A stretch of 44,888 bases of DNA from a virus: positions 1 through 44,888 of IMG/VR virus record IMGVR_UViG_3300046820_000639. The stretch is one strand, 5' to 3'. The stretch's first letter is position 1. Each line of letters starts with the position of its first letter. Shown in pieces: positions 13,085 to 44,888 of the stretch. The notes beneath the pieces were generated by a model. That model had not been told where the DNA came from. It did not search any database and worked only from the letters and a program-made list of their open reading frames with translations. Position numbers and translations under genes: made by a program.

Positions 13085-13402
13085 CAAAACTCAGATGGGC
13101 CTAAGTTAGGCGGCCATCAAAAATGCGTTATCATTTGCATTTAAAGGTTTTGCTTCTACGACCGGGTTCCCCCAATCCTAACGGGTTCTGCTTTCCCGTG
13201 CTGTCTGCTCTGCTACTTAATACCACGTCGAAACCTGGTCAGGCCCATCATAAAAGGACTAATGCAAACACAACAAGAACAACTATTATACCTATTCCTA
13301 GGCTGGTTAGATCGTCATTCATGCTAATCTCCTTATGGTGGACCTGGAGGGAATCGAACCCTCGTCCGCAACACCTTTTACATCACTTCATACAGCAATA
13401 AC
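13085..13402 (-). ncRNA. ssrA: Permuted two-piece tmRNA (ssrA)
   Basis: On the minus strand the acceptor piece comes first (about 13402-13336). It has T-arm stem GAGGG / CCCTC, loop TTCGATT, acceptor strand CAGGTCC, discriminator A and an encoded CCA at 13338-13336. The coding piece follows (13246 to about 13085), starting GGGCCTGACCAGGTTTCGAC, the tmRNA 5' signature. GGGCCTG pairs with CAGGTCC over 7 bp and includes G3-U70, the alanine identity pair. ACAGCA in the coding piece can pair with TGCTGT in the acceptor piece (helix 2). The order is circularly permuted, as in alphaproteobacterial and some betaproteobacterial or cyanobacterial genes. Exact processing ends are estimated. Confidence 0.93.
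13106..13138 (-). other. tmRNA tag reading frame
   Basis: From the resume codon GCA at 13138 the frame reads ANDNAFLMAA and ends in TAA. The start AND and the end AA fit known degradation tags, but the third-last residue is Met rather than the usual Leu or Val. The stop lies in a hairpin GCCTA / TAGGC, the expected helix 5. Confidence 0.92.
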
Positions 13403-23116: not shown

Positions 23117-25333
23117 TTAAATTCTTCTTACTCTCATGAAGCCTGGCGGCATGCCATTGGCCTCTTGTCGATTAATGTATTCTCTTATTTCATCAGCTGT
23201 AACATTACGTAGTGTGTCAAAAACTTCGTTGGGTGTATCGTACTGATATAATTCAACATCGCCTCTAGGTGCTTGAGACCTACTTCTATCTGCGGCATCA
23301 ACTGCTCCTGCAATATCTGGTTGGATATCTTTGACTGTAGAGTCTTTAGCTGGTCCTGTTTTAATACGTTTAGCAAGTTCTGCACGTCTACTCAATGGTT
23401 TTCTTACTGTGTCAAACTCAGAATAAGATCTAATATAATAGTCAACACCTGCATGCTTGTCCATTGCTAAATCTGCGGCTTCGCCTCTTGTGGCAGATTT
23501 AATTATGTCAATGATTTCGTCAGTTTCTCTATTAACTACTGCCCATTGTCCAGTGTTGGCTGATGTGTCTAACAACTCATATTGTTTCTTAAATCCTTCC
23601 ATTGACGAACCTGGACTAAGATCTTGTTTGGCTTTTGCTATAGCTTCGTCGTAGGTAAAATTACCATACTGTTTACCAGCTACAGGCTTGCCTGTGGTTT
23701 TATCATATAATTGCCATGTACTCTTTTTAAGAGTCTCAGGCGCATCTTTAGCCAATGCTGTTTCTGCCCATTGTTTCTTTAGTTCTTCTTTGGTAATTAC
23801 GCCAGCAGTATACTTTGCAAATAGTTCTAAGCTAGGATCTGATTTTTCTGGGGCAATAAGTTTGTACAACTTCTTAGCATACTCTTTACGCTCTAAGTCG
23901 GCACGGCTGGCAATGTGCATGGCCTGTGCATAACGCATCATGGTATTTTCTAGTCTATCAATACTGTCTGTGTATTCTTCACCGCCAGCACTACGGAATT
24001 CAATATAGCCTTGGTGCGGATTAATACTGGTGTACTTGCCAAAGTCGCCTTTGCTAATACTACGGCTAGCCAACTCAATCAAGTTACCACGCATCAACTC
24101 CATAGCGTCAGTTACCTTGGCATTGCCTCTGGCTATACTAGAACGAATCTTTTTCATTGCGGCTTCAGTAAAGTGATTACTGCTACGGCCAAATTCTTTT
24201 AATACGTGTTCGTCACCTAGGAATAGTGCCAACTTAACAAAGTCGACATTACCGCCAGCGTATGGTAAACTTACTCCCATATGGAAGCCAGTGGACCTAT
24301 TACTGTAAGCACCATTGCTGATTGCCCACTTAAAGAATTCACGCATCTTGTCTAGTGCTTCCTTAATAGGCATTGGTGGACTAACAATTTCTACTGGCAT
24401 ATCACCTGAGTCGGCATCAAGACTTGAGTCTGGTTCAAAAATCCAAGTTACATCATCTCGACGAGCACTATGGTATCCGCCTGATACTTTGGTTTTTACG
24501 CCAAGTACTTCACTTAAATCATCTGCTAGTCGTTGTGCATTTTGTTCACTGTATCCTGATTCGTTGCCACCAGAGCCGGTCATGTAAGGCCAATCTAAAT
24601 CAAATTGATCACGAACATCGCTCATCCAGCGTAGGCCAACATCACTAAAGAAACTACTGTCGTCATCTACTTGGAAATCGTTGCGGAACTCATCTAGGGC
24701 CATGTCATAGAAACCGTCTTGATCAGCAAGACTGTTTTCTGCTTGTGTTTGTAAGTCGTTTTCTGCTTGATCACGACCTTCTAAATAGTTGTCATAGGCT
24801 TTGCTGGCTTCTCTGGCCGCATTTTGATCGCTTAATTTAGTGTAGCGTGGTGCTGACTCGCCTGCTTCCATAGCGGCATCAACTTCTTCGTCGCTGAGTC
24901 CCATGGCTTCTAGTGCTTCACGAGTTTTGTCGTCCCAGTCCCACTCTTCGTCTTCGATGACTTTTTTAATTAACTCTTCTGCTTCGTCACGGAATGCATC
25001 GTACATTTGTTCGTCGTACCATTCCATGTACATTTCATCAAGACCGTTGCGTAGTTCACGTTCGCCACGAGGACTTAGTCCGTAGCCCCATTCATCATTG
25101 CTGAAAAAGTCAATAACTTCGTCAATAGACGAACAACGCTCGTCCATATCCATGTCCGGTTCCCAATCTTCTGGGTCAGATTCGCCTAAGCCTGTGAATA
25201 CTAATTCAGCTTCAAATCCAGCACGTATGCCTTCGGCTTCGGGACTGTTAATAAATGATTTGAGCGAGCTAGGGCTCATGCGTAGCTCGTCTAATTGTTC
25301 TTCTGTGAGTGTTCTAAAGTCTGTAAAACGCAT
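23117..25333 (-). CDS. Amidoligase_2-like enzyme with cassette leader, 738 aa
   Basis: The largest protein here. The leader MRFTDFRTLTEEQLDELR contains LDE. An acidic region (residues about 40-200) precedes the catalytic region: AGFEAELVFTG (about 40), VTWIFEPDSSLDADSGDMPV then EIVSPPMPIKEALDKMREFF and STGFHMGVSLPYAGGNVDFV (about 290-370). These match the GCS-like amidoligase_2 fold (D-S-L, EIVSPP, GxHxx). The family joins carboxylates to amines with ATP. The C-terminal 250 residues show internal WxLxDxxTG-like units. First gene of the coupled cassette. Confidence 0.75.
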   Translation of the reverse strand: MRFTDFRTLTEEQLDELRMSPSSLKSFINSPEAEGIRAGFEAELVFTGLGESDPEDWEPDMDMDERCSSIDEVIDFFSNDEWGYGLSPRGERELRNGLDEMYMEWYDEQMYDAFRDEAEELIKKVIEDEEWDWDDKTREALEAMGLSDEEVDAAMEAGESAPRYTKLSDQNAAREASKAYDNYLEGRDQAENDLQTQAENSLADQDGFYDMALDEFRNDFQVDDDSSFFSDVGLRWMSDVRDQFDLDWPYMTGSGGNESGYSEQNAQRLADDLSEVLGVKTKVSGGYHSARRDDVTWIFEPDSSLDADSGDMPVEIVSPPMPIKEALDKMREFFKWAISNGAYSNRSTGFHMGVSLPYAGGNVDFVKLALFLGDEHVLKEFGRSSNHFTEAAMKKIRSSIARGNAKVTDAMELMRGNLIELASRSISKGDFGKYTSINPHQGYIEFRSAGGEEYTDSIDRLENTMMRYAQAMHIASRADLERKEYAKKLYKLIAPEKSDPSLELFAKYTAGVITKEELKKQWAETALAKDAPETLKKSTWQLYDKTTGKPVAGKQYGNFTYDEAIAKAKQDLSPGSSMEGFKKQYELLDTSANTGQWAVVNRETDEIIDIIKSATRGEAADLAMDKHAGVDYYIRSYSEFDTVRKPLSRRAELAKRIKTGPAKDSTVKDIQPDIAGAVDAADRSRSQAPRGDVELYQYDTPNEVFDTLRNVTADEIREYINRQEANGMPPGFMRVRRI

Positions 25334-25360: not shown

Positions 25361-25981
25361 TTAACTATTTACCGTATCTTTATCGTTTAAGATATTTGAT
25401 GTATAGTCGTAATTTACCATCATTCCGTGGCTTTGTGTACGACGTTTTTCGCTTTTATCTGCATTTGGGATAGCACGTAGCACTTTAGCACCATTGGCCA
25501 AATGAAACTTAGCCACAGGATCTCCTTGTGCTTTTAAGAACTCAACAACAGCTTCAACACTAGGTGGTTCACTGAAATGAGCACTTAGGTTTGGAATAGG
25601 ACTCATGGTAACAAAGTTACGCACCTGTGGCATGTTTTCTTTGATCCATGTTGCGGCTTCACGTATAAGCACAGCACCTACATTTTTTAATTGGGTAGCT
25701 ACATCTGTGCGGAATACGCTGTAAAAAATAGCATGACTAGCACGAGTTGATACCGGACTGTTGTTGTCTAGTATGTCATCAATGTCATCGGGTAGGCCAC
25801 CTGTGTAGGCTACACAAAGCACAGCAACGGGTTTATCGTTTTCTAACAAAAAGAAAATATTACGATCATAACGACAACGACGCAACAAGGTTCTTGCGTC
25901 AGTTATACTGTGTACGGGGTCTTGGAATATGTACTGATAGAAATCAGTGTTGAAATTTTTGGATCTTAAGTGGGCGAGCAT
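25361..25981 (-). CDS. Malonyl-CoA decarboxylase-like catalytic domain (GNAT fold)
   Basis: A 206-residue protein that resembles the C-terminal catalytic domain of malonyl-CoA decarboxylase along its length. In order: VHSITDARTLLRRCRYDRNI, PVAVLCVAYTGGLPDDIDDI, HAIFYSVFRTDVATQL, NFVTMSPIPNL (catalytic Ser in SPIP) and DPVAKFHLANGAKVLR (catalytic His in FHL), ending MMVNYDY. MCD turns malonyl-CoA into acetyl-CoA and CO2. The helical N-terminal oligomerisation domain of cellular MCD is absent. AGGA precedes the ATG; a late-type motif lies upstream. Confidence 0.75.
   Translation of the reverse strand: MLAHLRSKNFNTDFYQYIFQDPVHSITDARTLLRRCRYDRNIFFLLENDKPVAVLCVAYTGGLPDDIDDILDNNSPVSTRASHAIFYSVFRTDVATQLKNVGAVLIREAATWIKENMPQVRNFVTMSPIPNLSAHFSEPPSVEAVVEFLKAQGDPVAKFHLANGAKVLRAIPNADKSEKRRTQSHGMMVNYDYTSNILNDKDTVNS
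25365..25373 (-). promoter_or_regulatory. Late-type motif GGTAAATAG upstream of the cargo cassette
   Basis: Minus strand, 31 nt before the ATG at 25333 and inside the end of the upstream gene. It lies in one arm of an imperfect inverted repeat (25336-25348 against 25368-25380, 12 of 13 positions paired). The core matches the motif in the palindrome at 16021. Confidence 0.45.
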
Positions 25982-26039: not shown

Positions 26040-26969
26040 TTATGATTTTACGTAAGGTACCAATGCCTTTATACTGGTCATGCCACGTTTGCGAGCGGCA
26101 GTGACTCGGTGATTACCATCTAATACCCAACCTTCATCATCCACTACAATAGGTTTACGTTCTATGTCGTGTGTAGTAATATCGTCAATGTGATCCCAGT
26201 CCAAGTCAATTACTCTGCGGTAACGGTCGTCCTGGTCATAAAATTCTGGAGTTTTTAATGTGCGTATAGGCACATGCTTTAATTGCCACGCTTTGTGATC
26301 TAATATAGGTTTGTCTAGAGTATAGCCATCTGCATGGATGCCCTTTACATACTTTAGAACCTGCTTGTTGGTGTATAGTTTGTTATTTCCGGTATTAGTG
26401 GCTTGCTCAAAATCTTCTTCTACAGATTCTGTTTGCACTTTGCCGGCTAAGGCTAAACGAAGTTTCTTTAATGCTTGATCGCACTCACCGTCTTGGTATA
26501 ATATACCGATACCACCATTGGCTTCCCATAAGCGTATATTGGTTGCATAATCATCTATTAAAATGTTAGGAGTGCCATCGGGTTGACGTGCGAATCTTTC
26601 TTTGTTGTGATCAAATAATATAGACTTCGGTGAGTGTTTGGTTAAATGCTTTTCTAACCATTCGGCTTTTTCTCTAGTGCTTTGTTCTATTTCGCTCATT
26701 AACGGACTAGACAATATACTATACTTGCCAGCATACTTTAGCACACCGTGTATTAGTTTACCTGCTTCGGGTAATGGCTGTAGATTTTCAAAAAATCCTG
26801 GTGTTTGTGCTACTTGCTCAATGCGGTCTTTTTCTTTGCGGGCTTGACGCCAATGCTCGGACCCTTCCCCTTTGGCCGCGGCACCAAAGAAGTCAGCAAG
26901 AACCCCGTCCATATCTACATAAACAACAGGTGGCTTTGGGTTATTGCTTTCGAACTCAAATGATTTCAT
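26040..26969 (-). CDS. HAD-type 5'-nucleotidase fused to ParB-fold domain
   Basis: A 309-residue two-domain protein. Residues about 15-175 form a HAD phosphatase of the 5'(3')-deoxyribonucleotidase type: VVYVDMDGVLADFFG (DxDG nucleophile), YSILSSPLMSE (motif II Ser), and ILIDDYATNIRLWEANGG (acidic motif IV). Residues about 200-309 form a ParB-like domain ending VLDGNHRVTAARKRGMTSIK. The nucleotidase part may remove phosphate from dNMPs. The start MKSFEFESNN only loosely resembles the cassette leader. Confidence 0.8.
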   Translation of the reverse strand: MKSFEFESNNPKPPVVYVDMDGVLADFFGAAAKGEGSEHWRQARKEKDRIEQVAQTPGFFENLQPLPEAGKLIHGVLKYAGKYSILSSPLMSEIEQSTREKAEWLEKHLTKHSPKSILFDHNKERFARQPDGTPNILIDDYATNIRLWEANGGIGILYQDGECDQALKKLRLALAGKVQTESVEEDFEQATNTGNNKLYTNKQVLKYVKGIHADGYTLDKPILDHKAWQLKHVPIRTLKTPEFYDQDDRYRRVIDLDWDHIDDITTHDIERKPIVVDDEGWVLDGNHRVTAARKRGMTSIKALVPYVKS

Positions 26970-26985: not shown

Positions 26986-27537
26986 CTAAACCTTTAACAT
27001 TTTATGGAAACGTATTAGTCTATCCTGCACCATTTGCTTGTGTCGGAACATGGCCTCTTTACCTAAGGTATACAAATTCATTGGTGGCAATGTTACTCTA
27101 GCATCAGCATCACCTTCGTGTTTGCTTATTTCTAGGCCAAACTTCTCCACCAGGTGTATAATAGGGCGATTATAGCTTAAACAATGCATGTAAACATCGC
27201 GGAAATTGCGATTCTGACACCATGTTACAGCATAGTCCATCATTTGACTGCTAACACCTTGATTGCGATGTGACTCTGCGACCATTACACCTAACTCAAC
27301 TTCTTGATCGCTGATTGTGGCTATGTGTACAGTACCAACAATTTCTAAATCGCTGTCTTCGGCTACCACTATATGATGCTTCTCTGGGTTTTCCAATATC
27401 ATATCAACCAACAAAGTAATTTGAATATCAGAGTAGGGTATACCAAAGTACATACTACGAGTATCCATATTGCGTTGTTTTAAGAAATACTCGTAGCATC
27501 GAAGTTCGTGTACGCTTAATAGTCTACAGGTAATCAT
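26986..27537 (-). CDS. GNAT-family N-acetyltransferase
   Basis: A 183-residue protein. GNAT motif A is seen as VELGVMVAESHRNQGVSSQM near residue 105, with the acetyl-CoA loop HRNQGV (variant of R/Q-x-x-G-x-G/A). Motif B is seen in the following FRDVYMHCLSYNRPIIHLVE KFGLE region, split here for length. The acceptor is unknown. It starts 2 nt after the 31-aa gene, so the two are co-translated. Confidence 0.85.
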   Translation of the reverse strand: MITCRLLSVHELRCYEYFLKQRNMDTRSMYFGIPYSDIQITLLVDMILENPEKHHIVVAEDSDLEIVGTVHIATISDQEVELGVMVAESHRNQGVSSQMMDYAVTWCQNRNFRDVYMHCLSYNRPIIHLVEKFGLEISKHEGDADARVTLPPMNLYTLGKEAMFRHKQMVQDRLIRFHKMLKV

Positions 27538-28236: not shown

Positions 28237-28860
28237 TTAAACTCGCTTGGTAACAACTTCGTCAGCTAGACCGTAGTCTACTGCTTCTTGGGCACTTAAG
28301 AATGTATCAAACTTCATAGCTTCAAACAGTTCTTCGTAGGTCTTGCCCTTGGTATTGTGCTTGACATACAGTTCAGTTAGTCGCTGATTAATGCGAACTG
28401 ATTCATCAAAGCTACGTTTAGCATCTTCGAACTGTAGTTCTTGTACGTGAACGCTACCACGTGTGCCCGGAGTACCAGAACTAACACGGTGAATCATTGT
28501 GCGTGATTCTGGTAGTACTAGTCGTTTCCCGGCAGCACCGGCGTTTGCGAGAAAACTTCCCATAGAGCAGGCCTGGCCCAGTACAATGGTAGATACATCA
28601 GGCTTAATGAATTGCATAGTATCGTATATTGCAAGTCCAGCAGTGACTGAGCCGCCTGGACTGTTGATGTAGAATAATATGTCTGCATCTGGGTTCTCAC
28701 TTTCTAAAAATAGCATTTGTGCTACAACGAGGCTAGCTGAGTGTTCGTTGACATCAGTGTCTAGCATTACAATACGGTCTTTGAGCAAGCGACTGTAAAT
28801 GTCGTAAGCACGTTCACCGTTTGAAGTTTTTTCTAATACAGTTGGTACAAAGTGTGGCAT
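28237..28860 (-). CDS. clpP: ClpP-like protease, copy 1
   Basis: A 207-residue ATP-dependent Clp protease proteolytic subunit. Oxyanion region [17 protein letters not shown], catalytic Ser in [14 protein letters not shown], catalytic His in [13 protein letters not shown], and Asp region [20 protein letters not shown] are all intact. It forms a barrel and needs a Clp ATPase such as host ClpX or ClpA. It overlaps the radical SAM gene by 28 nt. Full length with a complete triad, so it is likely active. Confidence 0.93.
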
Positions 28861-29984
28861 CGTTCACCTAATAGTTGATATGTTTCTGGAAATGTTTCTT
28901 GAAAACTTTGTTTTCGTTGCTTATCTAATATTTTAACATATTTTACAGTTGTGTCAAGTAATTCACTGTCATCTTTTGCCCACATGGCATTTAAGATTGG
29001 ATCTAATTGATCCGACATACTGTACAATTTAAACTTGCGTTCAATTGCTTGCTTGGATTCTTTAGGCAGTACCGTAATACTATAATAGTTAGGCCGCGTT
29101 AATAAACCCAAATAAGGTTGCGGCAGGCCATGCTTATCGCACCATAACAAAAAGTCAGGTAGTGCATGTAGCGTAAAGATGCTGACTGTGTGACTGACGC
29201 TAAGTTGTACATTAGACCGTTGTTTACGATACTCTAGCCAACGTCCCAAATTGATCAATACATCAGGCCAACGTGCAGGCCAACGATTGTATTCAAATTG
29301 ATTTCTAGTTCCGTCAATGCTAATTTGCACATCCACTTTTTTAAATCTTGGCCACCATTCATCTAGTATTTCATGACTGGGCATTTTTGTGCCATTGGTA
29401 ATATAGTGCAGGCTAACCTGATCGGCTTTGCCTTTTTTAACTATGTCAGACAGTAAATGAAAGTGTGGTTTGGCATCAGCATAAAACGGCTCGCCTCCGG
29501 CTATTTCAATTTGTAGCACACCGTCCAGCTGATCTAATAGCTTGGTCATAAACTCAGGATCTTTATAGAACTGATTGTGACCCCAAATTTTTATGTCGGG
29601 GAAATGTGGCTCTAATTTTTTAGCTTCCTGGGCCCAACGACTACTGGGATAACTGCTACAAATACGGCAGGCTAGATTGCAAGTATTGCCAAAGGTTAGA
29701 CTTAATGCTTTAATACCAGATAGTTCTGGTGCTTGATTGTCAAACAGGTACTGATTGTCAAGTGTGCGTTTTGATGGTAGACCTGCGTCTTCGTCTTTCC
29801 AACAGCGACTACATCCTTCGGGCTTGCGGCCAGCAACAAAATCCTCTTGCAGTTGTTTTAATGCAGGACTTGTTTGATACTCGTCTAGACTTTTAGCAAG
29901 AGTGCTGGTGTATTTACAGCAGGGCTTGAATTCACCCTGTGGGCTGATATCTAAACCAACCCAAGGATGATAACACATGGTCAT
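28833..29984 (-). CDS. Radical SAM protein with twitch/SPASM-type cysteines
   Basis: A 383-residue protein. An N-terminal Cys cluster ([20 protein letters not shown] then GCSRCW) precedes the radical SAM CxxxCxxC ([20 protein letters not shown]), followed by [11 protein letters not shown] (GGEP SAM-binding motif) and SISIDG-like [13 protein letters not shown]. This is the phage twitch-domain radical SAM family. Members may modify peptides; the substrate here is unknown. It sits between two clpP genes, with ATGA coupling to the upstream clpP. Confidence 0.88.
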
Positions 29985-43727: not shown

Positions 43728-44888
43728 TTACTTTGATTGTGCCCTGAAAACCCCATCCCAATCTTTTGGTAGGTCATGAGTTTTCATCTCCTTGCAACGT
43801 TCTATCCATAGCTCGTAGCTATGATCCATTTGGCCATCGAACTCGCCTGTTAACTGTTTACACATTTTAATTGCTTGATCGAACTTCTGACTACGATATG
43901 CGGCTAGCATAGCATCATGTGTTTCACGTGCCATCATATACTCGGGCATTGAACCTGCGTCTGTGTACAACAAAGGTGTGTAGATATTTAATCCAACTGC
44001 TTTACCTTTAACAGCTATACAGTCTAATTCTAGACAGAAAAAGTCATCTTTAACTTCTTTGTATGTGTCGGGACCAATGATCAACAGCACACCATAGCCC
44101 TTGGTTTGTCCTTCTAAACGACTGGCTACCGACACAGGATCGCCTAGTACATCATAGCCCATCTTACCTTCAGCACCAATGTTACCTACCAGTATCTTAC
44201 CTGTATTAACACCGGCACCCATACCCACTGGCGGCTTGCCAATTGACTCCAAGTGTTTGTTAAATTCTTCAACAGCCTTAACCATTTCAATGGCTGTCTT
44301 AACTGCATGGTAAGCATGACGATCATCGTCTAGTGGTGCACCGTGAATGTGCAATGACGCATCTCCAATGAACTTGATCAAGCATCCGTTGTTGTCAAAC
44401 ACAGGTTTAGCAATAGCAGTCATATATTCGTTCATGATAGCTGTAAAGCCTTCTACATCTGTGCCGTACTTTTCACCTAAGCCAGTAAAGTTACGCATGT
44501 CGGTCATAACTGCTGTCAACATCTTTTCTTCACCGCCTAGTTTAATTAGTTCAGGATTCTTCTGTAAACGTTCAACAATCACAGGGCTTACATAGCTACC
44601 AAACTGTTTCTTAATCTGTTGCTTCTGTAAGAATTCGCTTACAAACTTAACACCATAAGCGTGAAGCATAACCAAAATAAGACCGCCGACTGGAATAGTC
44701 GCGTCCACAAGCCATTGGCTACTGCTATATGCGAAATTACATAAAGGAATAATAACGCCAATACCAACAACACCTGCCCCAATACCAACATAAGTCCACC
44801 TTGTTAAAAATAATAATGTAACACCAATTAATAATACCGTCAATAGTTCAGCACCGTCGGCCCAATCAGGACGTTGAATAACTACACC
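43728..44888 (-). CDS. CHASE2-type class III adenylate/guanylate cyclase, N-terminus beyond window
   Basis: 386 codons are present; the frame is open to the right edge and begins RPDWADGAEL, typical of the end of a CHASE2 sensor. Three membrane spans follow (TVLLIGVTLLFLTRW..., then IGVIIPL and VGGLILVMLHAYG), then the cyclase domain: VMTDMRNFTGL (metal Asp), LIKFIGDASLHIHGAP (Lys and second metal Asp) and VLGDPVSVASRLEG (base-binding Asp). The usual Asn of the N-x-x-x-R pair is Ser here. It should make cAMP (or cGMP) at the host inner membrane. Unusual for a phage. Confidence 0.85.
   Translation of the reverse strand, partial: GVVIQRPDWADGAELLTVLLIGVTLLFLTRWTYVGIGAGVVGIGVIIPLCNFAYSSSQWLVDATIPVGGLILVMLHAYGVKFVSEFLQKQQIKKQFGSYVSPVIVERLQKNPELIKLGGEEKMLTAVMTDMRNFTGLGEKYGTDVEGFTAIMNEYMTAIAKPVFDNNGCLIKFIGDASLHIHGAPLDDDRHAYHAVKTAIEMVKAVEEFNKHLESIGKPPVGMGAGVNTGKILVGNIGAEGKMGYDVLGDPVSVASRLEGQTKGYGVLLIIGPDTYKEVKDDFFCLELDCIAVKGKAVGLNIYTPLLYTDAGSMPEYMMARETHDAMLAAYRSQKFDQAIKMCKQLTGEFDGQMDHSYELWIERCKEMKTHDLPKDWDGVFRAQSK

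Follow-up and report, generated by a model that had tools for sequence, protein, structure and literature searches.

The gene product described here belongs, judged by its sequence, to the malonyl-CoA decarboxylases (MCDs), a known enzyme family of which it is a new, compact phage variant. It is encoded in a 44.9 kb virus record that was analysed over its whole length (hereafter the window), which comes from a bacteriophage of aquatic type and is probably a fragment; the viral location of the gene, assumed in the initial annotation, was borne out. We consider it probable, on the basis of homology and structure prediction, that the protein is an MCD-type malonyl-thioester decarboxylase in a compact form specific to phages, likely active on malonyl-CoA or malonyl-ACP.

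Homology, predicted structure and active site

The gene is a minus-strand open reading frame whose span, 25361-25981, is exactly that of the annotated feature; it runs from an ATG start to a TAA stop, is preceded by an AGGA about 10 nt 5' of the ATG and encodes 206 residues. The initial annotation had proposed kinship with the MCD catalytic domain on the basis of a series of sequence blocks (VHSI, AYTGG, AIFYS, SPIP, PVAKFHLANGA and MVNYDY), all of which are present in the translation in the order given, and the proposal is upheld by a match to the MCD catalytic domain family PF05292 far above chance (E 1.2e-32, 114 bits against a Pfam cut-off of 23.2). PF05292 is the sole Pfam family matching the protein at E<=1. 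The match is split into two segments (profile positions 24-147 and 212-252), and the gap between them corresponds to a helical insert region that is skipped. In the PDB, sequence matches at E<=1e-10 are exclusively MCDs, with five MCD sequences as convincing relatives and the human and bacterial enzymes as the best relatives of solved structure. Cellular MCDs (human MLYCD and those of R. palustris, A. vitis and C. metallidurans; PDB 2ygw, 4f0x, 4ksa, 4ksf, 4ks9) share about 30% identity with the phage catalytic domain, as well as the GNAT fold, the Phe/Ser/His/Tyr active-site set and the FHxxNGA and NYxY motifs.

The AlphaFold2 model of the phage protein, built on 13 viral sequences (mean pLDDT 92.9, pTM 0.88), has a predicted GNAT-type fold that is nearest to MCD. 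In a Foldseek search the chains ranked 1-17 are all MCDs, followed by the CurA, GphF and SxtA decarboxylases, and the same order emerges from VIA-align, where the model superimposes on human MCD with a Z of 21.6 (rmsd 3.1 over 199 residues) and where MCDs score 18.0-21.6, the CurA, GphF and SxtA decarboxylases 16.4-17.7 and acetyltransferases at most 13.1. In the viral structure library BFVD, only distant GNATs matched the model.

We mapped the active-site residues by alignment to the PDB MCDs, allowing for a shift of 30 between chain and human numbering. Phe86 (codon 25724-25726), Ser127 (25601-25603), His160 (25502-25504) and Tyr193 (25403-25405), all on the minus strand, correspond to human Phe288, Ser329, His423 and Tyr456, respectively. 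Ser329 and His423 form the catalytic dyad of the human enzyme, where S329A lowers kcat 110-fold and H423N 7-fold, activity being reduced in the Y456S mutant as well; Tyr456 holds the catalytic His, and Phe288 has been proposed as a nonpolar place for CO2 (PMC3701320). None of the four residues varies among 24 distinct viral sequences or among the best 80 of at least 590 bacterial matches, and Phe86 is invariant in all viral and cellular sequences covering its region. Lys158, which is Arg in most relatives, occupies the position of human Asn421, whose counterpart in CurA contacts the CoA phosphates (PMC3701320). The initial annotation had placed a Ser and a His at catalytic positions, and the alignments to MCDs, from which we take the position of the dyad, agree with this; the structural match of the model to MCD is well above that to other GNATs. 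By sequence and predicted structure, the phage protein appears catalytically complete.

Compactness and the proposed reaction

Cellular MCDs are mostly 380-500 residues long and carry an N-terminal helical domain and a β5-β6 insert, whereas the viral form has 183-231 residues and neither of the two. The N-terminal helical oligomerisation domain (MCD_N, PF17408), already noted as missing in the initial annotation, was indeed found neither anywhere on the contig nor on 24 related viral records, in a search that detects a cellular control and one cellular-type contig. The second missing part, overlooked in that annotation, is the helical insert that separates the catalytic Ser from the catalytic His in cellular MCDs: the two residues are 33 positions apart in the phage protein and 32-34 across all viral members, as compared to 42-91 in bacterial MCDs (best 80 of at least 590 matches) and, by residue numbers, 94 in the human enzyme, 77 in that of R. 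palustris and 34 in CurA (PMC3701320). The phage protein therefore belongs to the PF05292 catalytic-domain family but does not have the full-length two-domain MCD architecture, and the viral form is, at the level of sequence, the smallest in our analysis with the entire MCD active-site set. With two structural elements of the cellular enzyme gone, its kinetics and oligomer state may differ; as the insert prevents dimerisation through the GNAT strands in MCD, according to the authors of the MCD structures (PMC3701320), the phage form may, by analogy, dimerise like plain GNATs.

In the mechanism that we propose, malonyl-CoA (possibly malonyl-ACP) would be bound in the GNAT fold, its thioester carbonyl would be polarised by Ser127 and His160, CO2 would be released into a pocket near Phe86, and the enolate would be reprotonated to give acetyl-CoA, while Tyr193 would keep the His in place. 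Having shed both the helical insert and the oligomerisation domain at the N-terminus, the phage form is a single catalytic domain of the size of a CurA-type decarboxylase.

As the same dyad is found in decarboxylases that next pass the acetyl group to ACP, sequence alone leaves the exact reaction unfixed, and it is possible, if doubtful, that the protein is instead a malonyl-ACP decarboxylase or acetyl-loading enzyme, which would turn host or phage malonyl-ACP into acetyl-ACP and thereby prime fatty-acid synthesis like MadA/MadB or load an ACP like CurA. The compact form and the Ser-His spacing of 33, against 34 in CurA, favour such an enzyme, as do the rank of CurA, GphF and SxtA as the next best structural matches after MCDs and the finding that, in E. 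coli, malonyl-ACP decarboxylation supports FabH-independent fatty-acid initiation (PMC8666670). The GNAT-like decarboxylase domains of these polyketide synthases (PDB 2ree, 2ref, 6mfc, 7uci) are, like the phage form, compact single GNAT domains, but they share only 14-16% identity with it, and both in sequence and in structure the phage protein is nearer to MCD than to CurA, whose dyad is His-Thr while the phage form has Ser. The phage gene is also a stand-alone reading frame and not part of a polyketide synthase, with no synthase nearby and no ketosynthase (KAS) on 28 viral records, and the link to polyketide chemistry considered in the initial annotation accordingly found no support. As for MadA/MadB (PF09500), the type of reaction may be common to both, but these malonyl-ACP decarboxylases have a hot-dog fold (PMC8666670) and no homology to the phage protein.

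Lipid genes on the viral contigs bear on the same question. The nearest relative lies on an 81 kb contig (G002), where an ACP gene and a desaturase gene overlap at a distance of about 8 kb from the MCD gene (operon at L117:11277-12306), and an ACP is found together with five tandem fatty-acid desaturases in one further MCD lineage (desaturases at L130:6236-10376, on the 228 kb viral contig G010), where the reading frames downstream of the desaturases resemble parts of a TRAP transporter. While these phage ACPs speak for an ACP-type enzyme, they occur in just 3 of 29 MCD records, from 2 lineages, as against 0 of 17 relatives in which no MCD was detected, counts too small for an association with MCD to be demonstrable. 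A link to desaturases was considered and rejected: 5 of 28 MCD records carry one, but so do 9 of those 17 relatives lacking a detected MCD, which makes desaturases a trait of the lineage and not of MCD carriers. With no ketosynthase on the viral records and no FabH on the MCD contigs, the phage MCD comes without an accompanying fatty-acid pathway.

It is improbable that the protein is an ordinary GNAT acyltransferase with the look of an MCD, transferring acyl groups to an amine or a protein. It does have the GNAT fold, and a second GNAT gene, of the ordinary type, lies close by in the window (26986-27537), but no GNAT acetyltransferase (Acetyltransf) Pfam model matches the protein at E<=1, the invariant His160 sits where canonical GNATs have their catalytic Tyr (general acid), the MCD dyad is invariant, and the VIA-align Z is 21.6 for MCD versus about 13 for acetyltransferases. 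The comparison of the MCD profile with other GNATs, set as a check in the initial annotation, thus came out in favour of MCD. Even less credible is a protein that senses or binds malonyl-CoA but has lost catalysis, given that the catalytic residues rank among the most conserved positions.

The viral family, its phylogeny and a distant relative

Scans of IMG/VR yielded 33 loci, all compact except L114, and the compact ones lie on about 32 contigs other than the window, the longest of 364 kb. L114 was rejected as a viral MCD and is treated as cellular because it is full-length, has MCD_N and falls inside the cellular clade. The 24 distinct sequences of compact viral members span 183-231 residues where complete. 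A T4-type terminase was found in 8 of 28 MCD-bearing viral records; in one contig (G007:216587-219521, minus strand), the terminase large subunit is split into two parts separated by about 1.4 kb, which suggests an intron or an inserted gene. Another record, L129 (CAKLQH020000007.1), is labelled as an Acinetobacter phage and carries the bacterial housekeeping genes fabD, fabG, acpP and rpmF; it looks mislabelled.

The searches that follow did not encounter the compact form. The viral-pattern scan of bacterial genome contigs yielded no relative, and the mixed-pattern scan gave at least 590 matches, the best 80 of which are all longer reading frames with a longer Ser-His insert. Of 220 plasmid matches, all are below 60% identity, and the best reach about 30-34%, in line with cellular MCDs. 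PHROGs, NCBIfam and 50,697 annotated phage records returned no match for the 206-residue protein, so that its absence from the usual phage gene catalogues, as first surmised, holds. Within the sequences searched, the compact branch would thus seem confined to large phages.

In our tree, which has no settled root, one branch parts the viral from the cellular MCDs with a support of 100/95. With stricter columns and without the longest branches, this support is 100/100; L102 and L016 have long branches and an unsure placement, and the viral clade stands without both. The dN/dS ratios in informative viral pairs are 0.04-0.10, and the clade is under strong purifying selection. That the gene is a decaying, truncated copy of a host MCD gene acquired by chance, as its two missing parts might suggest, can be dismissed as far as sequence allows, since the same compact form is found in all 24 distinct viral sequences, in one clade and at such dN/dS ratios, and all bacterial relatives checked (best 80 of at least 590) are longer.

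We also found a distant relative in the isolated SAR11 (Pelagibacter) phage Mosig, the 161-residue protein Mosig_00145 (L233:4965-5450), which is annotated only as a hypothetical protein and has relatives encoded by at least 178 viral contigs. Profile comparison connects the Mosig type to the compact MCD family with 97.2% probability (E 3.4e-11), and the motifs TLSP and FHxxNGA are separated by only 10 residues in 80 of 80 contigs related to Mosig_00145, which is itself devoid of the NYxY block. A weak model of the Mosig type (pLDDT 69) resembles GNATs generally, with MCD among its Foldseek matches and outside the VIA top 50.

Gene neighbourhoods and biological meaning

The neighbourhood of the gene in the window consists of phage-type genes, including an ATP-dependent DNA ligase, UvdE, ClpP proteases, an amidoligase-like protein and an adenylate cyclase, and no metabolic partner that is fixed across neighbourhoods emerges. 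The upstream neighbour, a deoxyribonucleotidase (NT5C) with a ParB-like C-terminal part (26040-26969, minus strand), adjoins the MCD gene in the window, L001 and L002. A ClpP-like protease is encoded at 28237-28860 (minus strand; Pfam CLP_protease, 4e-64), and in the window's own clade a ClpP gene often precedes MCD, directly in L005, L010, L011 and L014 and two genes upstream in L004. In the clade of L099, L100 and L101, AhpC-like genes adjoin MCD, joined in L101 by an AhpD-like one; these genes are found in large phage contigs (L099:8694-9233, L101:8582-9088). Between two ClpP genes of the window lies a radical SAM protein (28833-29984, minus strand) with weak matches to prokaryotic viperins (3.6e-8). 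A role of the MCD protein in antiviral signalling, raised in the initial annotation, is without support, PADLOC giving no match for it. Several neighbours, including that at 23117-25333 of the window (minus strand) and others in L003, L005 and L008, have N-termini of the form MRxxEF or similar, which may resemble the sequence that targets packaged proteins to the T4 capsid. The window further encodes a permuted, two-piece tmRNA (13106-13397, minus strand), which also scores as a betaproteobacterial tmRNA and has a likeness in the methylophage Melnitz, and an adenylate/guanylate cyclase (43728-44843, minus strand) with 50% identity to its homologue in the Methylophilales phage Melnitz; this cyclase, a single gene, points to a possible kinship with Methylophilales and Pelagibacter phages.

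Genes for fatty-acid metabolism are already known from phages, as in the desaturases of cyanophages and pelagiphages and the acpP-fabG-fabF genes of roseophages, but none of these sets includes an MCD (PMC8224337, PMC11480375). In the open literature searched we found no description of a phage MCD, nor of a phage gene for the destruction of malonyl-CoA or a priming step from it.

In fatty-acid synthesis, malonyl-CoA serves as the committed building block. If active in the infected cell, a decarboxylase of the MCD type would convert malonyl to acetyl units, a possible drain on malonyl-CoA of the kind supposed in the initial annotation, and could so benefit the phage, either by holding back chain elongation and saving acetyl-CoA or by supplying acetyl primers. 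A broader scenario, which we put forward as a speculation, is that of a virus-only branch of MCD-type GNAT decarboxylases that reprogrammes the start of fatty-acid synthesis when aquatic bacteria are infected, with malonyl-ACP or malonyl-CoA as substrate and phage ACPs and desaturases as partners, and that extends to the ultra-compact 161-residue relative common in SAR11-type marine phages. That our searches met this MCD branch in none but large phages suggests that these viruses tune the building blocks of host fatty-acid synthesis, and a phage enzyme that destroys malonyl-CoA, or makes a primer of it, would, if true, give the virus direct control over membrane synthesis in its host. The minimal viral form, moreover, lends itself to asking what purpose the additional parts of human MCD serve.
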